Shown here: piece by piece, positions 5,863-7,005 of the stretch
Layout: each line of letters begins with the position of its first letter
Numbering within the stretch: the first letter of the stretch is position 1
Source: a virus
IMG/VR virus record: IMGVR_UViG_3300022752_000491
Location: 1-20,084 of that record
Reading direction: 5' to 3' (one strand)
Length of the DNA stretch: 20,084 bases
Translations under genes and position numbers: made by a program
Notes under the pieces: generated by a model
What the model saw: the letters and a program-made list of their open reading frames with translations, nothing else
The model's database searches: none
What the model was told of the DNA's origin: nothing

Positions 5863-5893
5863 CAAGTATAATGAAAAAAAATGAATGTGTCAA
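5863..5893 (-). promoter_or_regulatory. Host-type promoter (TTGACA-N17-TATACTTG)
   Basis: On the minus strand TTGACA (5888-5893) and TATACT (5865-5870) are 17 bases apart, close to ideal for sigma-70. Read in Bacteroidota style it is TTG-N20-TATACTTG, the same spacing as the promoter at 354-384. The start codon of the 144-aa gene follows 23 bases later. Confidence 0.65.
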
Positions 5894-5897
5894 GTGG

Positions 5898-6020
5898 CTA
5901 TTTTAAGTTGCCCCACAAAGCTATTGCAATGCCAATTGCAATTTGAACAAAAGTAATAATTGCTATAGCAGCAGCCCAACGATTCTTTTGTTTGTAAATC
6001 TCGTCTTTAGCCTCTTTCAT
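5898..6020 (-). CDS. 40-aa membrane peptide, duplicate of the 3' end of the 6664-7005 gene
   Basis: ATG at 6018-6020 to TAG at 5898-5900 gives 40 aa: MKEAKDEIYKQKNRW, then a hydrophobic segment AAAIAIITFVQIAIGIAIAL. It aligns without gaps to the last 41 residues of the complete gene at 6664-7005 (MKSAKDELYQQKNRW...AIITFVQ...), with about 25 identical residues. Several codon differences are silent (for example GAT/GAC, AGA/CGT, GGA/GGC). Similarity begins at the Met itself; the frame upstream (to a stop at 6051-6053) is unrelated. It is either a 3' fragment left behind when the HNH gene inserted or a working small membrane protein. An intact frame and silent substitutions favour past selection. 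Confidence 0.6.
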   Translation of the reverse strand: MKEAKDEIYKQKNRWAAAIAIITFVQIAIGIAIALWGNLK

Positions 6021-6046
6021 ATTAGTTAACTTTTTATAAAATTTAT

Positions 6047-6055
6047 ATATTTATT
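6047..6055 (+). promoter_or_regulatory. Putative late promoter motif (ATATTTATT), plus strand
   Basis: ATATTTATT lies 10 bases before the plus-strand HNH start. This is the only plus-strand copy found and it precedes the only plus-strand gene in the middle of the window. Orientation therefore follows the gene. It also lies 26 bases from the divergent 40-aa ORF. Confidence 0.45.
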
Positions 6056-6065
6056 AATAAAAACT

Positions 6066-6674
6066 ATGGAAGAAAAAAAATGTTATGATTGTAAACTTAT
6101 ATTACCATTAAATGATTTTGAAAAGTGTAAAAAATATAAAGATGGTTTGCATTATAGGTGTAAAGTTTGTAAGAAAAAATACAGAGAAAAAAATAAAGAA
6201 AAAATTAAAATTTTAAATAAAAAAAGAGACTATGAAAAAATGAAAATAGTAAATAAAAATTACAGAGAAAAAAATAAGGAAAAAATTAAAGATATCAACA
6301 GAATAAGTGGTAAAAAATATAGAGAAAAAAATAAAGAAAAAATTAAAAAATATGCAAAAGAATATTACAAAAAAAATAAACATTTAAAAGCTTGGAGAGA
6401 TATGTTAAAATCTTCATTAAAAAGATTAGGGCAAAAAAAAGAAGCCGCTACTATTGAATTACTTGGTTATTCAGCATTAGAATTAAAAAACCATATTCAA
6501 TCATTATTTGTTGATGGTATGACATGGGATAATCATGGTGAATGGCACATTGACCATATAAAACCAGTAAGCAGTTTTCCAAAAACAACTCACCCTAGTG
6601 TAGTTAATGCTTTGACTAATTTGCAACCATTATGGTGGTTAGATAATTTATCTAAAAATAAATTTATTTATTAA
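6066..6674 (+). CDS. HNH homing-type endonuclease with N-terminal zinc finger
   Basis: A 202-aa protein. Residues 6-35 are a treble-clef or zinc-finger-like unit with CYDC and CKVC pairs. Residues ~38-108 are a Lys-rich linker with three copies of YREKNKEKIK. Residues ~125-202 are the HNH nuclease: GMTWDNHGEWHIDHIKP with H161, D163, H164, then TNLQPLWWLDNLSKN. The nuclease half closely matches the HNH gene at 554-1234, while the N-terminal recognition unit differs. It is the only plus-strand gene in the middle of the minus-strand module. Its last codons overlap the 3' end of the membrane-protein gene at 6664-7005, and a second copy of that gene's 3' end lies on its other side. Very A-rich codon use sets it apart from its neighbours and suggests separate arrival. 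Confidence 0.88.
   Translation: MEEKKCYDCKLILPLNDFEKCKKYKDGLHYRCKVCKKKYREKNKEKIKILNKKRDYEKMKIVNKNYREKNKEKIKDINRISGKKYREKNKEKIKKYAKEYYKKNKHLKAWRDMLKSSLKRLGQKKEAATIELLGYSALELKNHIQSLFVDGMTWDNHGEWHIDHIKPVSSFPKTTHPSVVNALTNLQPLWWLDNLSKNKFIY
6180..6347. repeat. Three 30-bp coding repeats in the HNH linker
   Basis: Near-identical 30-base units at 6180-6209, 6261-6290 and 6318-6347 each code for YREKNKEKIK. The intervals are multiples of three, so the frame is kept. They extend the charged helix between the zinc finger and the nuclease. Confidence 0.85.
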
Positions 6675-7005
6675 AATAAGTTAATAAAGCTAAGGCAACT
6701 CCAAATAACACTTGAACAAAAGTTATAATAGCTATAGTAGCTGTCCATCTATTTTTTTGTTGGTATAGCTCATCTTTAGCAGATTTCATCTGGGATGGCG
6801 ACCAAACATCGTTAACCTTTTCAATCCATCTGGAATGAGTATCTACTTTACCTTCAACATTTTTAACTTCGGTTAGTTTTTGGTTCAATTCAGAAAAACG
6901 ACTATCCATGTCAGTTCTCATCCTGTCATAGTTATCATTAAGTCTCTCAAGTTCTTTTAAAACAAGCTTACTGTAATCTCCCCATGTTCCTGTTTCTTCA
7001 GCCAT
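6664..7005 (-). CDS. Coiled-coil protein with C-terminal membrane anchor, 113 aa
   Basis: Residues ~8-50 form a charged helix with heptad character (YSKLVLKELERLNDNYDRMR). The middle carries VDTHSRWIEKVNDVWSPSQM, and residues ~89-111 form one hydrophobic membrane span (TATIAIITFVQVLFGVALAL). The N-terminus has no signal peptide, so it is probably tail-anchored with the coil in the cytoplasm. This shape recurs in phages of marine and Bacteroidota hosts as an unknown protein. A holin-like or prohead-membrane-anchoring role is possible but not shown. It follows the 77-aa gene by 2 bases. Its 3' end overlaps the opposing HNH gene and is duplicated at 5898-6020. Confidence 0.8.
   Translation of the reverse strand: MAEETGTWGDYSKLVLKELERLNDNYDRMRTDMDSRFSELNQKLTEVKNVEGKVDTHSRWIEKVNDVWSPSQMKSAKDELYQQKNRWTATIAIITFVQVLFGVALALLTYFNK

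Follow-up and report, generated by a model that had tools for sequence, protein, structure and literature searches.

How did an endonuclease gene come to lie between two diverged copies of the 3' end of one gene, and which of the copies is native to that gene? The question arises in a 20-kb virus record of a T4-related phage (IMG/VR IMGVR_UViG_3300022752_000491, 20,084 nucleotides, hereafter the window), where genes for the gp23 capsid protein, head protease, portal and terminase surround the site.

The locus and its parts

The gene concerned (6664-7005, minus strand) encodes a small coiled-coil/membrane protein of 113 aa and of unknown function, for which family searches found no named family and no match was obtained among 50,697 phage records. 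It lies tail to tail with an HNH endonuclease gene, the two overlapping by 11 bp at the target's stop end, and beyond the HNH gene follows a 40-aa ORF that can be aligned without gaps to the final 41 codons of the 113-aa gene, with 68% identity over 37 residues (E ~2e-14). The 202-aa endonuclease has an intact HIDHIKP..N..N motif; no Pfam family above the cut-off and no PDB relative were found for it. This three-ORF layout, with a tail similarity starting at an ATG, had been described in an earlier note made from the letters alone and holds, except that the fused tail, given there as 6664-6787, ends at 6789, codon 73 (ATG) being 6787-6789. The same note had denied that the second copy was a fresh duplication, rightly so: about 14 synonymous and 19 non-synonymous changes separate the two tails over 40 codons. 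The parts of the locus are listed in Table 1.

Table 1. Parts of the occupied 113-aa gene locus, with positions in the window.
Feature	Position	Strand	Evidence
Native 5' part of target gene, codons 1-72	6790..7005	-	93% protein identity to HNH-free L002/L050
Foreign replacement 3' end, 41 codons + stop, in-frame fusion completing the gene	6664..6789	-	69-71% identity to native tails of nearest relatives (L002, L050, L001, L003)
HNH endonuclease gene, 202 aa, antisense to target	6066..6674	+	PHROG 1035 endonuclease VII, E 2e-23
Right end of insert, non-coding, upstream of HNH (45 bp)	6021..6065		Missing from L050 and L001
Whole insert, 769 bp (replacement tail + HNH), exactly before native codon 73	6021..6789		Both flanks align continuously to HNH-free L050 and L001
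Stranded native 3' end, codon 73 to stop	5898..6020	-	100% protein identity to gene end of L002/L050
Promoter-like TTGACA-17-TATACT after native stop, intact	5865..5893	-	Consensus scan and alignments; similar in relatives

Native and foreign ends of the 113-aa gene

A scan of viral contigs recovered 55 loci with the 113-aa gene, and a profile scan 128 loci with 62 distinct tails, some of the 128 being repeats of one contig. The sole match in a bacterial genome (L138) is a 14-kb contig binned with a Magnetococcales MAG and is probably phage. The site is empty of HNH in every relative found with this gene. In the nearest of these, L002 and L050, the single tail corresponds to the 40-aa ORF, from which it differs by 9 synonymous and no non-synonymous changes, and has 71% protein identity to the tail now on the window gene; a 144-aa gene directly follows it. 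The single tail of L001 and L003 is 90% identical in protein to the same 40-aa copy. Alignments of L050 and L001 with the window are unbroken except for the foreign tail, the antisense HNH gene and the adjoining 45 bp, whereby the left junction falls exactly before codon 73 and the native sequence restarts exactly at codon 73 on the far side. The earlier note had predicted that in HNH-free relatives the gene's own 3' end would match the stranded copy and that the HNH gene would be absent exactly there; both were seen. HNH-free relatives with the long and the short ORF side by side, which would have refuted it, were found at none of the 128 viral loci.

By these alignments, the insert is established as a foreign tail plus an antisense HNH gene placed at codon 73. 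The assignment of native and foreign ends in relatives supports the inference that the endonuclease arrived with its own version of the gene's 3' end, leaving the old end stranded. No close donor of the foreign tail was found, the nearest tail type being that of L227 (78%). Since the window holds the single occupied locus known at this gene, apart from a likely ghost in L227 (see below), the mobility of its cassette can be argued only by analogy with other targets.

The same arrangement at other target genes

When left and right flanks were compared for HNH genes related to that of the window, the same anatomy was recognized in related uncultured phages at seven further targets, or eight with the window gene, and it involves several endonuclease lineages. 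At an SNF2-type helicase the order is the gene with a fused tail, an antisense HNH gene overlapping the helicase stop by 6 bp, a second small ORF, the stranded tail and a glutaredoxin-like gene. An RlaP-type nucleotidyltransferase presents the 5'-end version, that is, a stranded native head, an antisense HNH gene and the gene with a new head, with the same unit and junction in two phages. The gp23 capsid gene of L009 carries another HNH type on the same strand as the gene; its two 22-codon ends encode one and the same peptide, nearly all their differences being synonymous, and the stranded copy with its terminator resembles HNH-free relatives. A head-tail adaptor-like gene in L152 is associated with a DUF723/DUF4379-type endonuclease (PHROG 559), and its stranded tail has the same protein sequence as the tail of the relative L155. 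The remaining targets are a 180-aa gene of unknown kind in L305 and two genes met among other HNH genes of two of these phage genomes, a 178-aa gene and a RuvC-like gene (so labelled from its sequence, without a family search). The native state was checked for the nucleotidyltransferase, gp23, head-tail adaptor-like, 180-aa, RuvC-like and 178-aa genes.

The arrangement is recurrent but not general, most surveyed HNH loci being without it. Tail duplication was present at 6 of 46 distinct HNH loci in the survey, one of the six doubtful; nine HNH loci from isolated or named phages (Vibrio, Klebsiella, Flavobacterium and one uncultured) had none. About a third of the endonuclease genes found carry it, a figure from three partly read genomes, two of which had any such gene. 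As a background, same-strand duplication around a 600-bp gap occurred in 1 of 351 random placements in control loci, which itself turned out to be a true example, and in 6 of 165 placed at random within HNH contigs; the arrangement therefore exceeds chance expectation.

Several candidates were rejected. In L058, two small ORFs around an HNH gene share 37% similarity and are probably paralogous genes, so the locus was left uncounted. A recognition motif shared by the 113-aa gene and helicase sites was not significant, 12-17% of random phage windows matching as well. The window also has a second HNH gene (554-1234, 226 aa) directly after the gp23 capsid gene and on the same strand; it is not accepted as a cassette, there being no stranded capsid tail and the capsid terminator being like that of HNH-free L002. 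Its relatives occupy the same place in L006, L009, L019, L034, L044 and L047, with a clear stranded capsid tail only in L009. In three named Vibrio and Klebsiella phages (L365, L369, L370), an HNH gene and the (putative) major capsid gene converge tail to tail, again with no duplicated tail.

The genome of the empty-site relative L050 contains three related antisense HNH genes within ~4 kb (L374, 1685-5853), one of them a tail-replacing cassette. At the head protease of L003 (5913-6634), residues 1-16 are found ~0.7 kb upstream of a copy spanning residues 5-240, a possible 5'-end case. The portal gene is split at residue 155/156 by ~1.0-1.3 kb in L002 (899-2169) and also in L006, L010, L028 and L050, whether by an intein or an intron being undetermined; it is split elsewhere in L026, L030 and L037. 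A flank repeat in L025 has found no explanation.

The helicase cassette as a moving unit

In the comparison of 80 helicase loci, HNH carriers with both tails have the fused-type tail on the helicase gene and the native-type tail stranded. The maximum-likelihood tail tree (71 columns) united in one clade (100/99) six fused tails, two further tails, one beside an HNH gene and one beside an HNH remnant, and the tail of HNH-free L195; all stranded tails fell among the native tails of HNH-free phages. Several stranded tails stood beside the same neighbour as assigned by the helicase core (L139/L143, L171/L201, L152/L155, L090/L183). In the core tree itself the carriers were scattered, and 0% of bootstrap trees gave them a single origin. 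L139 and L217 share 93-98% identity across the cassette, fused tail included, against 71-88% in the flanks. Fused-tail distances followed HNH distances with r=0.97, compared with 0.40 for the stranded tail, albeit for five carriers only.

The insertion can be seen most directly in a near-isogenic pair. The empty L201 and the occupied L171 are ~99.4% identical over 1.6 kb upstream, switch at GATTGGGT/TACAGGT, and after the cassette are 100% identical over 300 bp from the stranded tail on, starting with AACGAGCAAGCC; about 10 native bases were replaced at the L171 insertion. The tail-HNH unit with the same junction is present in at least five phage lineages. On these comparisons, helicase tail and HNH gene are shown to move as one unit between phages.

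The motif NNEQAEDR used by the HNH cassettes is occupied by another element in L154, L206 and L208 (from ~5670), where an intein-like insertion reads ..NNEQAEDR/CVFGGQLVMTNEGYKLIEDI.. Hence, this conserved helicase motif is one site for two kinds of mobile element. The helicase cassettes possess a second ORF upstream of HNH (L070 4604-5011, L079 853-1407, L090 480-1121) with a similar N-terminus and a variable rest; one of these ORFs has a weak match to an Arc-like repressor and is possibly an endonuclease regulator.

States after endonuclease loss

Several loci retain parts of a cassette. In L152 the two helicase tails are separated by only a few bases, without an HNH gene; its fused tail falls into the HNH-associated clade, for which reason the locus is read as endonuclease loss. 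L164 has a fused helicase tail with a degraded HNH gene, L161 an HNH gene without a stranded tail, and L195 a foreign-type helicase tail alone. The RuvC-like tail of L397 is foreign at its start and native at its end, as would be expected from recombination between the two copies; this assignment is weaker because the fused type of this gene also occurs in HNH-free phages. L227 bears the 113-aa gene with the window's distinctive tail type and no HNH. Its 45 bp before the promoter, compared with native tail ends, were on average identical at 20.0 of 45 positions, against at most 19.3 in 500 shuffles (promoter-anchored, simple shuffle), while an unanchored search for a native-tail remnant was not significant. 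Judged by its sequence, L227 is likely the ghost of a lost cassette. The existence of HNH-loss products is thus shown.

Selection on fused and stranded tails

Fused and native tails are separated by dN of ~0.23-0.26. Among themselves, the fused tails show dN/dS of 0.03-0.12, i.e., purifying selection, and therefore behave as functional protein ends. This concerns the function that a carried gene part would have to restore in a home-and-rescue element; escape of these tails from cleavage is inferred only.

Compared with their native neighbours, the stranded tails give dN/dS of 0-0.09, values that native pairs show as well. Those of the window, L139, L217, L171, L152 and L090 are all intact and conserved, in L152 even after HNH loss. 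The earlier note had raised the possibility that the stranded end in the window is reused as a small membrane peptide, which would then have its own function. An intact ORF with an ATG, a dN/dS against relatives near 0 and the intactness of stranded tails elsewhere would fit such a peptide. However, the start ATG is nothing else than native Met73, other stranded copies have no start codon at their edge, and native pairs are equally low in dN/dS; the conservation can be accounted for by recent insertion just as well as by function. The suggestion is therefore left without support, and we consider a retained peptide improbable.

Proposed mechanism and alternatives

The insert is very likely an intron-less homing cassette, consisting of an antisense HNH gene and a diverged copy of the target's 3' end that would serve as a cleavage-proof replacement. 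In an endonuclease-free phage within the same cell, the HNH enzyme would cut near codon 73 of the native gene, and repair of the break from the occupied genome would copy the cassette in. The upstream part of the gene might act as the left homology arm and, probably, the stranded native tail as the right one. The incoming tail would complete the gene, which would keep the cost to the host phage low, and since neither junction restores the native site, the occupied gene should remain uncut. Cleavage, cut position, immunity of the occupied gene and spread by homing are all inferences that rest on the anatomy and on what is known of phage homing endonucleases (PMC2988022). Of the earlier proposal of exon-replacing homing without intron or intein, the anatomy and the lack of an intron signature are thus confirmed, and the cleavage and homing themselves stay at the level of inference.

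The duplication could instead be the accident of a single repair event and no part of a mobile unit, if an intergenic HNH gene had been copied together with the adjoining gene end of a donor phage by one-sided strand invasion and end joining. Phage homing normally involves co-conversion of flanks (PMC2988022), and at the 113-aa gene a single occupied locus is known. An accident does not account for the helicase tail-HNH unit, which recurs with the same junction in its several lineages and is more alike than its flanks, nor for the nucleotidyltransferase unit, which likewise occurs in two phages. As an explanation of the present elements such imprecise homing is unlikely, though not to be dismissed, and it may have been the first origin of each cassette. 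The adjacency of two similar copies, and L152 with two helicase tails and no HNH, might also suggest that the gene's 3' end was simply duplicated in tandem, independently of the endonuclease, and that the HNH gene was inserted between the copies later. Then HNH-free relatives of the 113-aa gene with two tails might be expected, whereas the 128 loci contain none; the copies differ from each other far more than the stranded copy does from relatives, and the tail tree parts fused from stranded tails across phages, unlike a within-phage duplication. We therefore hold this explanation to be highly unlikely. Even less credit, next to none, is given to a spliced intron or intein (or part of one), or to pieces joined at the RNA or protein level: although inteins occupy the same helicase site in three phages, the window gene is complete with its own stop codon, the HNH gene is antisense to it, and no Rfam intron match was obtained up to E 1.

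Besides the homing cassette proposed for the window, a wider reading seems to us probable, namely that home-and-rescue elements exist in nature as a whole class, borne by large freshwater phages. Several unrelated endonucleases (different HNH types, DUF723/DUF4379) would have repeatedly acquired diverged ends of needed genes (capsid, helicase, nucleotidyltransferase, adaptor and others). They would spread by cleaving the native form of the gene and delivering a protected one; phage lineages would thereby exchange protein ends, and the exchange would outlast endonuclease loss. By making good the portion that it disrupts, a selfish endonuclease could in this way inhabit a needed coding sequence without the help of an intron or intein. 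Engineered home-and-rescue drives rest on the same principle, and in phages it can be studied by comparing empty sites with near-isogenic occupied ones and with the scars left after loss. Such elements would explain concretely how phage genomes come to have mosaic protein ends, and would also account for odd short ORFs beside endonuclease genes that would be annotated as hypothetical proteins. With conserved head and replication genes among the targets, the model yields clear predictions that cleavage assays and phage crosses can address.

Comparison with known systems

The T4-like free-standing homing endonucleases of the seg and mob groups (intronless homing) are likewise phage-encoded, lack an intron, adjoin conserved genes and are expected to spread via double-strand-break repair in mixed infection (PMC2988022). 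The window element shares with free-standing enzymes a homing-family endonuclease domain and a site that is empty in close relatives. The seg and mob genes, however, sit between genes and often cut at a distance (PMC2988022), whereas the window element lies inside a coding sequence and brings a replacement gene end; the word stem 'duplicat' is absent from that review of T4 mobile DNA. A group I intron or intein would require splicing for the host gene to be whole, and the window gene is complete without it. The inteins at the helicase site use the same motif and also leave the host protein whole, but by protein splicing rather than by a new gene end. The synthetic HomeR drive similarly combines a nuclease in a needed gene with an uncuttable version of a part of that gene; it uses Cas9 in Drosophila (PMC7968924), while the phage element is natural and employs a naturally diverged gene end.

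The phage case was not found in the literature searched, including T4 mobile DNA reviews and a phage endonuclease survey (PMC2988022, PMC2993671, PMC10448857); subscription papers were mostly outside the search. The closest anatomy is that of the mobile ORFs (mORFs) of fungal mitochondria, which form hybrid genes at atp6, atp9, cox2 and nad3 of Glomus sp. (PMC3630166) and, according to a citation in that paper, at atp6 of Allomyces macrogynus. There, as in the window, an endonuclease ORF lies in a gene, a foreign C-terminal part completes the gene and the native part is stranded downstream; the stranded part matches relatives and the inserted part does not. The window element thus agrees with the mORFs in having a foreign end fused in frame and a native end stranded beyond the endonuclease ORF. 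It departs from them in the enzyme: fungal mORFs encode LAGLIDADG or GIY-YIG endonucleases, in places in frame with the host gene, whereas the phage elements use HNH or DUF723/DUF4379-type enzymes, whose genes mostly run antisense to the target and overlap its stop codon, and there is also a 5'-end version. The anatomy is therefore known from fungal mitochondria; new, as far as the searched literature goes, is its phage-borne form, with HNH or DUF723/DUF4379-type enzymes, mostly antisense, at both 3' and 5' ends and in eight genes.
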